A DNA stretch of 40,412 bases from an uncultured Bacteroidota bacterium (GTDB lineage Bacteria; Bacteroidota; Bacteroidia; Bacteroidales; UBA12077), in assembly GCA_913055895.1 (NCBI GenBank), contig CAJXLE010000005.1, positions 1-40,412 on the forward strand, given 5' to 3'. A program made the translations under genes and the position numbers. The notes under the pieces are model-generated. The model did no database searches. It was not told the origin of the DNA and saw nothing but the letters and a program-made list of their open reading frames with translations. Shown one piece after another: positions 16,626-25,163 of the stretch (position 1 is the first letter of the stretch; each line of letters opens with the position of its first letter).

Positions 16626-18995
16626 TTATTCATCGCGCAGGGTATGTGCCGGATTGGCATTGGCTGCTGCCACGGTCCTGCCCAAAACCGTTGCAAGGGC
16701 AATGAAAAAGGCTAAAAACAGTGAACCACCAAAAAACCACCACTCTATTGGACTGTGGTAGACAAAGTTGTCGTACCAGTTGCGGATAAAATAGTAGGCA
16801 ACAGGAAAAGCAATTGCAGCTGAAAGAAGAATCCACAAAAGATATCTGCCGGCAAACATACGTACTATACGGCTGGCGGAAGCTCCCATGACCTTCCTTA
16901 TTCCAATCTCTTTGATTTTACGGCTTATATGAAAGGCTGTTAAAGCGAACAGTCCCATGACAGCAATAAGCATGGCCATGAGCGTTCCGGCCACCATTAG
17001 ACCGGCGTATTTCTCTTCTCTCCGGTAATAGCGCCTCTGAAGATAATTGTCCAAAAAATAATGCTGATAAGTATAAGATGGGTCATGATCCTCAAGTACC
17101 GTTTCTGCATATTTCACAACCTGCCTGGCCTGCCCGTCAGCAATCTTTATGTATACGTGGTTGATGAGATTCTGTTTCTTCCCGATATGAGCCAACACCA
17201 CAGGTCCCAATTCACGGTGTAGCGACCGGTTGTGGTAATCGGCAAAAACACCGATGACGGGTCCCGAGTTTCCCCAGATATGAATTTTTTTACCCACGGC
17301 CTCTGTTAATCCCAACATCCGGGCAGCCTTTTGGTTGATCAGGAAGCCCTTGCGGTCGGTGTTCAGGCGGGGGGAAAAGGTCCGCCCTTCTGTGATCGGT
17401 ATTTCATAGAAATCCGTGAAACCTGGCTGAACAAGATTGGCCCTCACCTGGAAGGATTCTTTTTCCTGTTGCCGGGCAGTACGCAGGTTGGTCCCGCTGC
17501 CACGTGTACCAGGAACAGCCATGGAAGCCGTCACATCCAGGATACTGGGATTCTTAAGCAATTCCTGACGTATGGAGGCATACTGATCCTGGATGCCGGA
17601 GGTCAGATAACCCACCACCAAAACATTTTTTTGCTGGAAGCCCAGGTCCTTGTTCTTAACATAACGCACCTGGTTTAAGATGCCGGCCAGTGAAACCATC
17701 ATTATGATGGCAATAACAAACTGGAGGGACACCAACACCTGTTGAAGGCCCATTTTGTTTTTCCCCTTACTGGCAGATCCTTTCAGAACCGTCAAAGAAC
17801 CCAGGCGCGACAAGTAGAAAGCAGGATAGGCCCCAGCCCCCATACCTATGAATAAGGAAAGCAAAAACCCGGCAACTATCCATCCATAATCACGTCCAAA
17901 GCTCAAATGAAGCCGGCTGTCGACCAACCGGGAAAAATCATCCACAAAAACCTCCACCAACAAGATAGACAGGATAAAAGAACCCATTGCCAGGAGCGCG
18001 GCTTCCCCTATAAACTGCTTGCGAAGATCCGCGGGACTGGCACCATGAACCTTGCGCACACCCACTTCACCGGTTCGTGTTTCTCCCCGTGCCATGGAGA
18101 GATTAACAAAATTAAAAGCGGCAATGACAAGGATAAAAAATGCAATGGCAGAGTAAATCCATATATACTGAATATCGGTAGTTTTTGCAAGGTCGGAGCT
18201 AAAACCGGAATGTAGATGAATGCGTGTCAGGGGTTGCAATTCATGGGTGAATTGGACAGAGGTTTCGCCGTATCTTTTGTCATCAATATTTTCTGTCACC
18301 CGGCATATCTTCTTCTCCAGGTTTGTGTTGACGGGCTGGTTCAGCCGAAGGTAGGTATTAAAATCATGGCCGTGTTGGCTCAGTTTCTTCTCCCCAAGCG
18401 TTCTCAGGCTCAGAAGGGCGTCGAACTGGAGATGGCTCTTAACGGGCAGATCATCCATGATGGCCACCACACGGAATTCTTCTTCATCTATTTCCAGGGT
18501 TTTGTTGACAGGATCTTCATCGCCAAATATTTCGGCAGCCGTCTGACGGGTAAGCACCGTTGTATTGGGTTCTCCAAGCGCCCCGGGGTTGCCCTCCAGT
18601 ATCCTGAAGGAGAATATGTCAAAAAAGTCCCCATCCACGTAACTTTGTTGGTATCTTCCATGGTTGTTGTCCTGATAACGGATATACCGGAAATACCTGC
18701 GAAAGACCACGGTTGACGCTTCCACCTCCGGCACCTTTTCGGCAACCTGCTGGTCGACCTCATAGATGCTTTTGGGCATGGTCATTTCCTTACCCCTGCC
18801 TTCATAATGGGTGACCAACCTACCGATGCGGTCGGAGTCTTCAAAAAAACGGTCGTAAGTCATCTCATGATGGATAAAAAGAAGGAGAAGTATTACAGAA
18901 GCCAGGGCCAGGGCCATTCCAGGGATGTTGATCAGGCTGAACGATTTGTTCCTACTCAAATTTCTCAGGGAGGCTTTCATGTAGTGCTTGAACAT
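16626..18995 (-). CDS. double-FtsX/MacB_PCD ABC transporter permease (789 aa)
   Basis: Two MacB_PCD-FtsX modules: GEVGVRKVHGASPADLRKQFIGE and EIGIRKVMGASASRIVRMFAGRY. Start may be ATG 18980. Confidence 0.93.
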   Translation of the reverse strand: MFKHYMKASLRNLSRNKSFSLINIPGMALALASVILLLLFIHHEMTYDRFFEDSDRIGRLVTHYEGRGKEMTMPKSIYEVDQQVAEKVPEVEASTVVFRRYFRYIRYQDNNHGRYQQSYVDGDFFDIFSFRILEGNPGALGEPNTTVLTRQTAAEIFGDEDPVNKTLEIDEEEFRVVAIMDDLPVKSHLQFDALLSLRTLGEKKLSQHGHDFNTYLRLNQPVNTNLEKKICRVTENIDDKRYGETSVQFTHELQPLTRIHLHSGFSSDLAKTTDIQYIWIYSAIAFFILVIAAFNFVNLSMARGETRTGEVGVRKVHGASPADLRKQFIGEAALLAMGSFILSILLVEVFVDDFSRLVDSRLHLSFGRDYGWIVAGFLLSLFIGMGAGAYPAFYLSRLGSLTVLKGSASKGKNKMGLQQVLVSLQFVIAIIMMVSLAGILNQVRYVKNKDLGFQQKNVLVVGYLTSGIQDQYASIRQELLKNPSILDVTASMAVPGTRGSGTNLRTARQQEKESFQVRANLVQPGFTDFYEIPITEGRTFSPRLNTDRKGFLINQKAARMLGLTEAVGKKIHIWGNSGPVIGVFADYHNRSLHRELGPVVLAHIGKKQNLINHVYIKIADGQARQVVKYAETVLEDHDPSYTYQHYFLDNYLQRRYYRREEKYAGLMVAGTLMAMLIAVMGLFALTAFHISRKIKEIGIRKVMGASASRIVRMFAGRYLLWILLSAAIAFPVAYYFIRNWYDNFVYHSPIEWWFFGGSLFLAFFIALATVLGRTVAAANANPAHTLRDE

Positions 18996-19007
18996 GGAAG
19001 ATTCTTT

Positions 19008-19036
19008 AGGTTTACGGGCAGGTTTACGGACAGGTT
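19008..19036. repeat. 12-bp tandem repeat (two copies plus a partial)
   Basis: AGGTTTACGGGC / AGGTTTACGGAC / AGGTT in the gap between the two large permeases. Confidence 0.6.
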
Positions 19037-19055
19037 GAAGTTTACAGGTTAAAGA

Positions 19056-21443
19056 TTATTCGTCCCTCAGTCTGCTGGCCGGGTTCACAGCAGCGGCCCG
19101 CAGGGTTTGCATGCTGATGGTGGCGGCAGCAATGCCCAGGGCGATCAGTCCGCCCAGCAGGAACATCCATATCTGCAGGTCGGTCCGGTAGGCAAAATTC
19201 TGCAGCCAGTCGCTCATGAAATACCAGGCGGCCGGCCAGGCCAGCACGTTGACCACCATTACCCATCGCAGGATGTCGATCAGCAACAGGCGCACCACCC
19301 GCTGGTAGGAAGCACCCATGGCCTTGCGGATGGCGATCTCACGGCTGCGCTTGACCACCGTGAAGGAACTCAGGGCGAAAAGGCCCAGGATGGCCAGGAA
19401 GATGGCCAACACCGACCCTGCCATGATCATCCTGTTGGTTTGCCGCTCCTGTTGGTGCAGCTGGGCAAAAACATCATCAATAAAGGTATACCTGAAATAA
19501 TACTGCGAATCGAACTCCTGCATGACCTGTCGCACATGCTCCAGGGTAGCCGGGACATCGCGCATGTCCATCTTGATGGAAATGTTCTGAAAATATCCCG
19601 AGTAATGGGAAAGCACCATAGGCTCTATCTGATGGTGGAAAGAGCGAAAATGAAAATCACGCATCACACCAATGACTTTCCCTTTTTGCTGAAAAACCTC
19701 TATCCGTTTGCCGATGGGATCGCTCAGTGCCAGCTTATCAACGGCCTGTTGGTTGAGAACAAAGCCGGTGCTGTCGCTGGCCAGCTCTTTGCGGAAATGC
19801 CTGCCTTCAACCATCTCAATGCCGTAGGTCTCCACATAATGATCCTGCACACGGTTTTCCTGTATGACGATGGACTCGGAAGAGGGATCCTCGGCCTTCC
19901 TGGCTGTCTGCACTGCACGGTCGGCACCCGGGTAACTTACCGAGGCGGTGACCGACCGGATGGAGGGATGTTTCATAAGCTCATCCCTTACGGACTGGTA
20001 GCTGCCACGGATGTCGCCTGTTACGTCCTGTACCACAAGAATATTATCCTTGTTCACACCCAGGTCTTTGTTGTTCAAATAGTTGATCTGGCTGCGCAGG
20101 ATGATCAGCGAGGTGATCAGGAAAATGGCGATGCCAAACTGCACCACTACGAGACCAATCTGCAGGGTCCTGTTGCGGGAGCCGCGGCTTCCTGTACGGC
20201 TGAAAATTCTCACCGGGTCGAACCGAGAGAGGAACAAAGCCGGATAAGAACCGGCCAGCAACCCGACAACAACAGCAAATCCAAGCAAACCTAGAATAAG
20301 TGCAGGATTCAACCAGTCGATGACCAGCTCGCTGCCCAGCAGGTTGCCCAGGGGGCCGGCCAGCCAGTTGACCAGCAGCAGTGAGATAAGAAGAGACACA
20401 AAAACCACCACAAAGGATTCCAGCAGGTGTTGGGCGATCAGTGATTTTCGGCGGGCTCCCAGCACCTTGCGCATGCCCATCTCGCGCGAGCGGTACTCAC
20501 CGTGGGCGGTGACCAGGTTAACGAAATTGACGATGGCAATGACCAGGATGAAGGCGGCCAGGAAGGAAAATATATAAATGGTGTTGATGTCGCCCTGGGG
20601 GTCAATCTCAAAATTGTAACCTGAATACAGGTGGATGCGGGTCAATGGCTGAACCCGGGTCTGCACATCGAAGGCTCCCTCCGATCCAATCTCCTGCATC
20701 ATGCTGGTGCCAATGCTGTTGGCCAGGCTCCTGACTTCCTCTGCCCATTCTCCTTCCGGTGCACCGGGTTTCACACGGAAATAGGTAAAAAAATCCCAGC
20801 CATGTTGCTGCATAAAACGCTCCGGATGCTCCATGGTGTAGAAGGAGGTGAGCATGTCGAAGTCGAAGTGGGAGTTGGCAGGTATCTCTTCCAGGACGGC
20901 CCCAACCGTATAGCGCTCCGTTTTTCTTCTTATCTCCTTACCAATGACCTCGTCGCTGCCAAAATAGCGGTTGGCCAGGGAACGGGTGATCACCACCTCT
21001 CCGGGGGTTTTCAGTGCAGATGCCCCGTCGCCCCGGTGAACCTTAAAAGAAAAAACATCGAAGAAGGAAGAATCTGTATACATCAGCTCGATGTTGGGAT
21101 ACATATTCTCTTTCCGGTCGATCAGGGTCACCTCATCTTCATAGAGCTTGTTGGTTTCCACGACTTGTGGTATCTCCCTTTTCATAGCTCCCGATACCTT
21201 GGCCAGGGTGCGCGGTACTACCATGGACTTACCCCCCGGCCGGTCCACATGCGAGACAATGCGATAAATCTGTTCATGCCCCTGGTGAAACTTATCGTAA
21301 CTCAATTCATAACGAATGTAGAGGAACAGCAGGATGGAGGCGGCCAACCCAATAGCCAGACCGGTGATGTTGATGATGGTATAAAATCGGTATTTCTTAA
21401 GATGTCGTATGGCGGACTTTAGATAATTGCTGAACATAAACAT
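19056..21443 (-). CDS. double-FtsX/MacB_PCD ABC transporter permease (795 aa), paralogous to its neighbour
   Basis: SREMGMRKVLGARRKSLIAQHLLES and SREIAIRKAMGASYQRVVRLLLIDI. Start may be ATG 21437. Confidence 0.94.
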   Translation of the reverse strand: MFMFSNYLKSAIRHLKKYRFYTIINITGLAIGLAASILLFLYIRYELSYDKFHQGHEQIYRIVSHVDRPGGKSMVVPRTLAKVSGAMKREIPQVVETNKLYEDEVTLIDRKENMYPNIELMYTDSSFFDVFSFKVHRGDGASALKTPGEVVITRSLANRYFGSDEVIGKEIRRKTERYTVGAVLEEIPANSHFDFDMLTSFYTMEHPERFMQQHGWDFFTYFRVKPGAPEGEWAEEVRSLANSIGTSMMQEIGSEGAFDVQTRVQPLTRIHLYSGYNFEIDPQGDINTIYIFSFLAAFILVIAIVNFVNLVTAHGEYRSREMGMRKVLGARRKSLIAQHLLESFVVVFVSLLISLLLVNWLAGPLGNLLGSELVIDWLNPALILGLLGFAVVVGLLAGSYPALFLSRFDPVRIFSRTGSRGSRNRTLQIGLVVVQFGIAIFLITSLIILRSQINYLNNKDLGVNKDNILVVQDVTGDIRGSYQSVRDELMKHPSIRSVTASVSYPGADRAVQTARKAEDPSSESIVIQENRVQDHYVETYGIEMVEGRHFRKELASDSTGFVLNQQAVDKLALSDPIGKRIEVFQQKGKVIGVMRDFHFRSFHHQIEPMVLSHYSGYFQNISIKMDMRDVPATLEHVRQVMQEFDSQYYFRYTFIDDVFAQLHQQERQTNRMIMAGSVLAIFLAILGLFALSSFTVVKRSREIAIRKAMGASYQRVVRLLLIDILRWVMVVNVLAWPAAWYFMSDWLQNFAYRTDLQIWMFLLGGLIALGIAAATISMQTLRAAAVNPASRLRDE

Positions 21444-21818: not shown

Positions 21819-24800
21819 ATGGAATTTATAGCCGATCTTCACATACACTCCCATTTTTCCATGGCCACCAGCAAACAGCTGCGGCCGGAATACCTGGATT
21901 ACTGGGCCCGCATCAAGGGCATCAAAGTAGTGGGAACGGGTGATTTTACCCACCCCGGATGGCTCAAGGAGATGAAAGAAAAACTGGAACCCGACGGTTC
22001 AGGTCTTTTCCGGCTCAGGGAAGACTACAAGCTGCCCAACATCATCCGGGAGAAACCAGAAAATGCTGTTCGCTTTCTGCTCACCGCCGAGATCAGCAAC
22101 ATCTATAAAAAAAACGGGCAGGTTCGCAAAGTACATAGCGTTTTGATGGCGCCCGACTTTGCAACGGCCGAAAGAATACAACAGCGGCTTGCCTCCATGA
22201 ATTTTAATATCACCTCCGACGGACGCCCCATCCTGGGCCTGGATGTGCGCGACCTGCTGGAGATGACCCTGGAGGCCAACGAAGACAATTTCTTTATACC
22301 CGCACACATCTGGACACCCTGGTTTTCGGTGTTTGGCTCCAAGTCGGGCTTCGACAGCATGGAGGAATGTTTTGACGACCTCACCGGACACATCCATACT
22401 GTAGAGACAGGTCTCTCCACCGATCCGCCCCTGAACTGGATGTGCAGCTTCCTGGACCGATACACCCTGGTCTCCAACTCCGATGCCCACTCACCGGAAA
22501 AACTGGGAAGGAATGCCAATTTGTTCAGGACAGAACCCAGCTATCATGGAATCGTGGATGCCATGAAAACGGGCGACCCGGAAAAATTTGGCGGTACCTT
22601 CGACATGTTTCCCCAGGAAGGCAAATACCATTACGACGGGCACCGCAAATGCGGAATAAGATGGGATCCGGCAGAAACGCTGAAACACCGGGGCATCTGT
22701 CCCGTATGTGGCAAAAAGATCACGGTAGGTGTTGTCAACCGTATTGTCAGGCTCTCCGACCGCGAGGACATCTTTGAAAAAGACCACCGCCTGCCTTACT
22801 ACAGCATCATCCCCCTCAAAGAGATGCTCTCAGAGATCGAGGGCGTAGGCGAAAAATCCAAAAAGATCTCCCGTCAGTATGAACAACTGATCCGCAAAGC
22901 CGGCAGTGAATTCAACATCCTGCACTACCTCACACCCGATGAGGTAAGTCATGCCGGAGGGGAAGTGCTGGCCGAGGCCATCAGGCGTATGCGCAACAAC
23001 GAGGTGATCATACATGAGGGGTTCGACGGCCAGTACGGAGAGATCAAAGTTTTCCAGCCCGGCGAGCTCCGGTTTGTCGGAAGCCAGGAATCGCTTTTCA
23101 ACGCCTCGGCATCTTTTAACAGACCCGCCAAAAGACAACTGATCAATTTCGACCTGGCTGAATACAAGAGACTGGAAAACTCCAGCCAGGTTTTCGATCA
23201 GGCTGCTGAAGATCCTGCCCGTTATGGCGCAGATGAGCAGGGTCCGCTGAAGGACTTAAACCCGGAGCAGAAACAGGCAGCTGCCCATTTTGAAGGGCCA
23301 GCCGCTGTTGTAGCCGGACCGGGCACCGGGAAAACACGGGTCTTGACCCGCCGCATGGCCTACCTGGTTGACGACAAGGGCATCGACCCCTCCCACATCC
23401 TGGCCATCACCTTTACCAACAAGGCTGCCGGAGAGATGAAAGAGCGATCTCGCCGGCTGATCAGCAGCAGCGATCAAGCCAGCCAGATGACGGTGGTCAC
23501 TTTCCACGCCTTCGGATACGTTTTCCTGCACGAGCACCCGGGGGAAGCCGGGCGAACAGCAAGCTTTTCGGTAATCGACGGGCAGGAGCAGCAGGAGTTG
23601 ATCAGGGAACTCTTTGGTGTCGGCTCCCGGGAGGCCGGCTCAATGGCCACAAGCTTCAGCCGCATCAAACATATGGAGGAAGCCCCGGAAAGCATAGAAC
23701 CGGAAGACAAGGCACCGACAAACAGAATCCCGCAGAACAAAGACCAGGAAAACCAAACAGCCGATAAAAACGAGAAAAAAAGATACAACGCAGATAAAGG
23801 GTCTGCCAGCGAAGTGGATGAGAAGACCCGCCAGGCGTTTGATGAGTATGAAAAGCAGCTGAGAGACCGCGATCTTTTTGACCTCGATGATTTGATCTTC
23901 CAGACGGTAAGGGTGATGGAAAACAACCCAACCCTACGCCAACAAGCCGTCAGCCGGTATCCGTGGATACTGGTCGACGAGTTTCAGGACATCAACCCCA
24001 TGCAATACCGCCTGCTCAGGCTCCTTAGCCAGGACAACCAAACACCCAACCTTTTTGTCATTGGCGATCCCAACCAGGCCATATATGGTTTCCGCGGATC
24101 CAGCACCCGCTTCATCTCACGCTTTATTGAGGATCATCCGGGAGCATCACAATACACCCTGCATACCAGCTACCGCTGCCCGCAAAACATCCTGAGGGCA
24201 TCAGGCAATGTGCTCCATCAAAAAGGACTGGAAGGTCTCAGCGAAGGTGTAAAGATTAAAATTGCACCGCAGCAGACCGGTAAGAGCGAGGCCGAATACA
24301 TTGCCCGGACCATCGAGTCGCTGAGCGGCGGCTTGCGTTTCTTCTCCATGGACAGCGGGATAACCGGCGGAGAGGGCGATAAAAAGATAGGCAGCCTCTC
24401 CGATTTCGCCATCCTGTGTCGCACAAAGGCACAAATGCGGGACATCGGCAAAGCACTTCGCGACCATACCATCCCCTATCAGTCCGCTGTTGATGAGTCG
24501 TTTTTCAACCACCCCCTCGTACAGAACGTACGGCGCATCATCGAATACCTGGAAAATCCGGACAACCGGCATCTCAAAGCCACCCTATCCAACATCATTT
24601 CTCCTGCCAAACCGCCGGAAAACATCCTTGATGAACTAAAGCAACATGAAGACCTGAAAACCAGGGTTCACATGACCCTGGAGTTGCTCGCCGGCAATAA
24701 CGGAAGCGATGACCAGGCTGAGATAAGCCAGAAAATAAAAGACCTGACCCCGTCCTTTGAACAGGCTGCAGATGATTTCATCCGTTATCTCAAACTGGGG

Positions 24801-25163
24801 GCACCCGGAGATGCTTACCAGGACAACACCGAGAAGGTGACGCTCATGACCCTGCACGCATCCAAGGGACTGGAATTTAAGTGTGTCTTCATTGCCGGTG
24901 TCGAAGACGGACTCATCCCCTATTCCCTGTTTAAAAACCAGCAAAGCGACCGTGAAGAGGAAAGACGCCTGCTCTATGTGGGCATGACACGCGCATCCTC
25001 CTACCTCTACCTCACCCATGCCAGGAAACGCAGCATCATGGGGCAGGAGAAAGATATGACCAGGAGCCCATTCCTGGACCAGATCGAGAAAGAGCTGACC
25101 GAAGTGGCGGAAAACACTTACCAGAAAAAGAAACAGGACGATTCCCAGCTGAAGCTTTTTTAG
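21819..25163 (+). CDS. endonuclease Q-like PHP/Zn-finger nuclease fused to a UvrD/Rep-type SF1 helicase
   Basis: N-term EndoQ/PHP: ADLHIHSHFS, VGTGDFTHPGW, NSDAHSP, Zn finger GHRKCG...CPVCGKKITVGVVNRI. C-term SF1A motifs: AGPGTGKTRV, AITFTNKAAGEM, LVDEFQDINP, GDPNQAIYGFRG, TSYRCPQNIL, TLHASKGLEF, RRLLYVGMTRA. Confidence 0.95.
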   Translation: MEFIADLHIHSHFSMATSKQLRPEYLDYWARIKGIKVVGTGDFTHPGWLKEMKEKLEPDGSGLFRLREDYKLPNIIREKPENAVRFLLTAEISNIYKKNGQVRKVHSVLMAPDFATAERIQQRLASMNFNITSDGRPILGLDVRDLLEMTLEANEDNFFIPAHIWTPWFSVFGSKSGFDSMEECFDDLTGHIHTVETGLSTDPPLNWMCSFLDRYTLVSNSDAHSPEKLGRNANLFRTEPSYHGIVDAMKTGDPEKFGGTFDMFPQEGKYHYDGHRKCGIRWDPAETLKHRGICPVCGKKITVGVVNRIVRLSDREDIFEKDHRLPYYSIIPLKEMLSEIEGVGEKSKKISRQYEQLIRKAGSEFNILHYLTPDEVSHAGGEVLAEAIRRMRNNEVIIHEGFDGQYGEIKVFQPGELRFVGSQESLFNASASFNRPAKRQLINFDLAEYKRLENSSQVFDQAAEDPARYGADEQGPLKDLNPEQKQAAAHFEGPAAVVAGPGTGKTRVLTRRMAYLVDDKGIDPSHILAITFTNKAAGEMKERSRRLISSSDQASQMTVVTFHAFGYVFLHEHPGEAGRTASFSVIDGQEQQELIRELFGVGSREAGSMATSFSRIKHMEEAPESIEPEDKAPTNRIPQNKDQENQTADKNEKKRYNADKGSASEVDEKTRQAFDEYEKQLRDRDLFDLDDLIFQTVRVMENNPTLRQQAVSRYPWILVDEFQDINPMQYRLLRLLSQDNQTPNLFVIGDPNQAIYGFRGSSTRFISRFIEDHPGASQYTLHTSYRCPQNILRASGNVLHQKGLEGLSEGVKIKIAPQQTGKSEAEYIARTIESLSGGLRFFSMDSGITGGEGDKKIGSLSDFAILCRTKAQMRDIGKALRDHTIPYQSAVDESFFNHPLVQNVRRIIEYLENPDNRHLKATLSNIISPAKPPENILDELKQHEDLKTRVHMTLELLAGNNGSDDQAEISQKIKDLTPSFEQAADDFIRYLKLGAPGDAYQDNTEKVTLMTLHASKGLEFKCVFIAGVEDGLIPYSLFKNQQSDREEERRLLYVGMTRASSYLYLTHARKRSIMGQEKDMTRSPFLDQIEKELTEVAENTYQKKKQDDSQLKLF

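Follow-up and report, generated by a model that had tools for sequence, protein, structure and literature searches.

The locus considered here raises the question of whether a single bacterial polypeptide joins an endonuclease Q (EndoQ) to a helicase and, if so, what such an enzyme would do. It lies in a window of 40,412 nucleotides on a contig (CAJXLE010000005.1) from an uncultured Bacteroidota bacterium. An open reading frame with an ATG start, 1114 codons plus a stop codon and no internal stop occupies positions 21819-25163 of the forward strand (Table 1). The initial annotation had proposed from this reading frame that EndoQ and a UvrD/Rep helicase share one chain of 1114 residues, and that reading holds, as the frame is single and the same arrangement recurs in other genomes. 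An assembly chimera is ruled out by the presence of the same fusion in congeners and in distant phyla.

Domain architecture and active sites

A Pfam search of the fusion protein returns helicase and AAA families only and leaves the EndoQ half unmatched; as had been foreseen, annotation based on Pfam would thus describe a plain UvrD-like helicase, and the nuclease half would stay hidden. The assignment of roughly residues 1-420 to EndoQ is borne out by several other comparisons. The NCBIfam model TIGR00375 matches residues 5-409 with an E-value of 1.7e-50 and 172.5 bits, which is under its curated cut-off of 326.6 bits, a score reached by no genome in the phylum sample. PfuEndoQ (5zb8) matches the N-terminal part with a phmmer E-value of 1.5e-51, at about 30% identity, and a search of solved structures with this part returned EndoQ entries only (5zb8 and 7k30-7k33). 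The predicted structure, an AlphaFold2 model built from the fusion protein and 48 relatives (mean pLDDT 84.8, pTM 0.65), agrees: when compared with EndoQ, as had been proposed at the outset, the modeled half appears to have the three-domain EndoQ fold, with a Foldseek TM-score of 0.90 to 5zb8 by target length and a deviation of 2.5 A. The placing of the EndoQ half relative to the helicase half is uncertain, as a pTM of 0.65 does not fix it.

The PHP metal ligands, which the initial annotation had expected to be intact, are H8, H10, D42, E91, H106, H163, E196, D222 and H224 by mapping onto PfuEndoQ. Three of them, E91, H106 and H163, align with Pfu E76, H84 and H139, substitution of which abolishes PfuEndoQ activity (PMC8307549), and the base-pocket residues H139, G169 and S171, by which thymine and adenine are sterically excluded in PfuEndoQ (PMC8307549), correspond to H163, G198 and S200. 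All of these ligands and pocket residues are invariant in the 49 aligned fusions. The zinc finger with Cys ligands, as first described, stands only in part: three Cys ligands are present, and the first is replaced by His275, so that the ligands H275, C278, C294 and C297 form an H-C-C-C set whereas PfuEndoQ has four Cys. The zinc-site residues, His275 included, are unchanged in 49/49 fusions, and by this conservation the site is plausibly still a zinc site, though not of the C4 form.

The helicase half is matched above cut-off by the Pfam families UvrD-helicase (PF00580, E 1e-75) and UvrD_C (PF13361, E 4e-40). The PcrA, Rep and UvrD models span residues 477-1098, each below its equivalog cut-off (367 of 911, 325 of 951 and 297 of 1144 bits, respectively), and the modeled fold resembles that of UvrD, with Foldseek TM-scores of up to 0.78 by target length. 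The full set of SF1A helicase motifs is present, as had been claimed, and K505, T506, D720, E721, Q753, R759, R786, R868, E1019 and R1058 do not vary among the 49 fusions. Two regions depart in length from related helicases. An insert in subdomain 1B is ~40 residues longer than in congeners (TFH-to-DExQD spacing 159 versus 120-122), and the stretch between motifs IV and V, which covers the 2B subdomain, has 149 residues compared with 211 in a PcrA-like helicase that this genome also encodes. Fusions have not lost the 2B subdomain as a rule, since their motif IV-V spacing ranges from 113 to 213; in a set of high-GC relatives (L039, L040, L041-L044, L047) this spacing is only 113-117, and most of the subdomain seems to be absent there. 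In trees the fusion helicase half forms a clade of its own, to which the genome's PcrA-like helicase does not belong.

Table 1. Positions of the fusion gene and its features in the window
Feature	Residues	Position	Strand	Basis
Whole gene, EndoQ-UvrD fusion		21819..25163	+	uninterrupted ORF; homologous fusions in many genomes
EndoQ half	1-412	21819..23054	+	PfuEndoQ phmmer match, residue mapping, conservation, Foldseek
Putative zinc site	275-297	22641..22709	+	mapped to Pfu C249, C252, C268, C271
Internal motif QESLF	423-427	23085..23099	+	EndoQ/helicase joint; column conservation
SF1A UvrD/PcrA/Rep-type helicase half	477-1098	23247..25112	+	Pfam/NCBIfam, Foldseek to UvrD
Walker A (motif I) AGPGTGKT	499-506	23313..23336	+	sequence; K505, T506 in 49/49
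Charged insert, subdomain 1B	621-662	23679..23804	+	pLDDT below 50; motif spacing
Walker B (motif II) DEFQD	720-724	23976..23990	+	sequence; D720, E721, Q723 in 49/49
Shortened 2B-subdomain region	~899-1000 (approximate limits)	24513..24818	+	motif IV-V spacing
C-terminal motif QLKLF	1110-1114	25146..25160	+	conservation; consensus in PMC12309361

Motifs of the clamp-binding type

The chain ends in QLKLF and carries a second motif, QESLF, at the joint between the two halves, both of which resemble the bacterial clamp-binding consensus QL[S/D]LF or its looser form QxxLF (PMC12309361). Q and F of the C-terminal motif are retained in 46/49 aligned fusions, and Q[LM]xLF forms the C-terminal end of all intact members of the first comparison set. 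For the strict form Q[LM]x[LF]F, 55 of 64 complete fusions show a match within their final 16 residues, compared with 11 of 644 other open reading frames of at least 250 amino acids at the same loci (10 of these 11 being fragments or split or stand-alone members of the EndoQ-UvrD family, and one unrelated) and with 3 of 3730 windows of 16 residues within fusion bodies. Residues 1101-1114, the tail that carries QLKLF, are of low confidence in the AlphaFold2 model. A conserved motif of the QL[SD]LF/QxxLF type in what appears to be a flexible tail is what characterizes beta-clamp clients, and by sequence the fusion would belong among them.

The internal motif is less strictly kept (Q in 36/49 fusions, L or F in 46/49, final F in 40/49). 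Its position is that at which stand-alone EndoQs of the Nitrospirota type (L082, L093), and that of an Omnitrophota locus (L128), stop, their ends being GQSMLF, GQATLF and GQLSFF. From these features we infer that the fusion binds the clamp via QLKLF and QESLF. Archaeal EndoQ binds PCNA through a C-terminal PIP box and is stimulated by it, and clamp motifs in bacterial EndoQ homologues were remarked by the same authors (PMC4858679). A clamp link of bacterial EndoQ has thus already been suggested in print; no description was found of a helicase fusion that carries the motif twice. At one further locus from the same order (L038:9875-11284), a stand-alone EndoQ of 469 amino acids retains a piece of the fusion-type linker and has QLRLF at its C-terminus, which gives the impression of an excised helicase with the tail left behind.

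Distribution and co-inheritance of the two halves

The fusion is present in three further members of the genus (full-length identities of 73, 71 and 68%), in a less closely related genome of the family (G014) and in 12 further genomes among the 297 sampled from the phylum, two of these 12 being frame-shifted; its distribution is patchy, at about 3% of the sample. TIGR00375 was also run on 396 genomes of the phylum, a family-model search with no bias toward fusions; its matches were confined to fusions, namely 11 intact ones, including that of this contig, and two frame-shifted ones. In two genomes of one family (L049, L050) the frame breaks at differing sites near residues 165-177; a programmed frameshift is disfavoured because the sites differ, and sequencing error or decay is likelier.

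A scan of GTDB species gave at least 594 EndoQ relatives. Among the best 80 of these, 69 loci are fused, a share that is biased upward since the ranking was by similarity to an alignment of 15 fused proteins and one stand-alone protein. These 69 fall in more than ten phyla, with members in Bacteroidota, Cloacimonadota, Calditrichota, KSB1, Elusimicrobiota, Desulfobacterota, Nitrospinota, Chloroflexota, Planctomycetota, Gemmatimonadota, Fibrobacterota, SAR324, Spirochaetales and Bacillota. Many are from metagenome-assembled genomes, and others are from long contigs and isolates (Desulfonema magnum, Geobacter argillaceus, Acetivibrio).

Distances between EndoQ halves and between helicase halves are correlated (Mantel r 0.80; 0 of 2000 permutations), which fits co-inheritance of the two over a long time, and the invariance of both active sites across many phyla suggests selection on both activities. 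The coupling is not obligatory, because the EndoQs of four loci (L082, L093, L095, L114) have no fused helicase. A separate helicase of the fusion type was looked for in genomes with a stand-alone EndoQ, and only ordinary-looking proteins of UvrD/PcrA size were present, 27-38% identical over the main stretches. The Omnitrophota locus (L128:6001-10183) has EndoQ and a fusion-type helicase as separate genes on the same strand with one gene between them, each ending in a clamp-type motif (GQLSFF and QLNLFDL). Both nest among fusions in their respective trees, and this arrangement suggests fission of a fusion. As to whether fusion or fission came first, the EndoQ tree needs 8 changes, and its archaeal outgroup is too distant for rooting.

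Genomic context

The fusion gene is flanked upstream by two tandem ADOP/MacB-like permease genes (16626-21443), which are divergent from it and seem unrelated, and downstream by genes for a TroA-like (periplasmic) binding protein, coaD and a thioredoxin-like protein. In six other loci of the Desulfobacterota type (L081, L084, L089, L098, L106, L113) a dnaN-family gene (beta clamp) stands close to the fusion, with gyrB adjoining in five of the six; these identities were confirmed by Pfam in L081. The six loci also carry two short, uncharacterised genes (products of 175 and 204 amino acids; L081: 4624-5766), both without a Pfam match. ATP synthase genes, recognised by eye from sequence, stand beside the fusion in four loci (L039, L042, L043, L047).

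The genome of this contig also encodes two proteins of the UDG superfamily and EndoV. A role as a stand-in for an absent UDG is ruled out, as UDG-superfamily proteins occur here and in 45/50 genomes with EndoQ relatives. A mobile or phage gene was likewise rejected, the EndoQ half having no phage match and the plasmid matches listed covering the helicase half only.

Proposed function and alternatives

Taken together these findings indicate that the fusion is probably a bifunctional, clamp-tethered enzyme of alternative excision repair. This reading draws on an EndoQ match that spans the whole half with invariant catalytic and pocket residues, on the concerted evolution of the two halves and the nearness of dnaN in six loci, and on conserved clamp-type motifs, archaeal EndoQ being stimulated by PCNA (PMC4858679). 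It is weakened by the score below the TIGR00375 cut-off, by the one zinc Cys that is His, by the EndoQs that lack a fused helicase and by the uncertain placing of the two halves in the model.

We infer the catalysis, lesion specificity, motor polarity and order of events. The two QxxLF motifs would dock the fusion onto the beta sliding clamp, and the EndoQ half would flip out a uracil, hypoxanthine or abasic site and nick 5' of the lesion. This cut would expose a 3'-OH and make the damaged nucleotide the new 5' end. EndoQ is reported to cut in this way, producing a 3'-OH on one side and, on the other, a 5'-phosphate on a downstream strand that begins with the lesion, and a helicase step has been proposed for one EndoQ pathway (PMC4357722). 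The helicase half would then load at the nick on the intact strand. UvrD-type helicases have an established 3'-5' polarity, and movement in this direction on the intact strand runs 5' to 3' relative to the nicked one, so that the downstream, lesion-bearing strand would be peeled away. A primed template would be left for a clamp-bound polymerase, with flap removal and ligation to follow, and the clamp would keep the enzyme at the 3'-OH and hand the primer to the polymerase. Two elements of the initial annotation are narrowed accordingly by what was found. Against a fully self-contained machine, the two clamp motifs argue that it works on the clamp together with a polymerase and ligase; and the alternative entry to excision repair would be better described as a parallel route, since two UDG-superfamily proteins and an EndoV are encoded in the same genome.

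The fusion shares its catalytic PHP and pocket residues, its fold and, plausibly, a zinc site with PfuEndoQ, TkoEndoQ and Bacillus pumilus EndoQ (TIGR00375/COG1379), as well as a C-terminal sliding-clamp motif, and differs from them in the attached helicase, the H-C-C-C form of the putative zinc site and the presence of two bacterial clamp motifs rather than a PIP box. The about 30% identity to PfuEndoQ, the sub-cut-off score and the altered zinc site could also mean that the specificity of the PHP half has shifted to a different lesion or DNA structure, for instance to AP sites alone, oxidised pyrimidines or flaps, in keeping with a genome that already has UDG-superfamily proteins and EndoV; the invariance of the pocket for uracil and hypoxanthine (H163, G198, S200) makes such a shift unlikely. 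With UvrD, PcrA and Rep the fusion has the SF1A motifs and overall fold in common, and it differs in its own clade, short 2B region, scores far below cut-off, N-terminal nuclease and C-terminal clamp motif. In mismatch repair a nicking MutL and UvrD strip the nicked strand. By analogy a clamp-bound EndoQ might nick misincorporated uracil in the new strand, with the helicase stripping that strand, a strand-discriminating role that the clamp-type motifs, the UvrD-type motor and the dnaN neighbourhood of one group would suit; nothing in the present findings, however, ties the fusion to MutS or MutL, and the EndoQ pocket would accommodate hypoxanthine and AP sites as well. This role is improbable.

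An SF1A motor is coupled to a nuclease also in RecB, AddA, AdnB and Gabija GajA-GajB. The fusion differs from these in having its nuclease in the same chain, of PHP fold, probably a lesion-specific nickase and apparently clamp-tethered, and in lacking a RecB-type nuclease or TOPRIM/ABC partner. A defence role, in which EndoQ would cut invading phage or plasmid DNA that contains uracil or hypoxanthine and the helicase would unravel it in a Gabija-like manner, would agree with the patchy distribution and the resemblance of the helicase half to GajB profiles (PADLOC), and an antiviral role of bacterial EndoQ was suggested earlier (PMC8307549). The GajB matches are, however, limited to the generic UvrD-like half, the PADLOC matches listed being helicase-only, and a separate GajA ATPase-TOPRIM nuclease is absent among the nearest large neighbours. 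The EndoQ half has no phage match and the listed plasmid matches are to the helicase half, the neighbours are housekeeping genes (coaD here; dnaN, gyrB and ATP synthase genes elsewhere), and the clamp motifs suit repair of the cell's own DNA; defence is an improbable function.

The initial annotation named no characterised EndoQ-UvrD fusion but left room for one, and no description of such a fusion was found in the open-access PMC literature. If the clamp-tethered repair reading is correct, the fusion may represent, as a tentative proposal, a widespread and so far undescribed route of bacterial excision repair, in which a single clamp-tethered chain nicks at deaminated bases and unwinds the damaged strand, and in which the two motifs could occupy both sites of one DnaN dimer and so keep the complex together from the nick through unwinding to polymerase hand-over. 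Archaeal models for the step after the EndoQ nick posit strand displacement or a helicase. The occurrence of the fusion in more than ten phyla with invariant active sites points to which activity follows the nick, and the fusion would offer a single protein with which to rebuild the EndoQ pathway.
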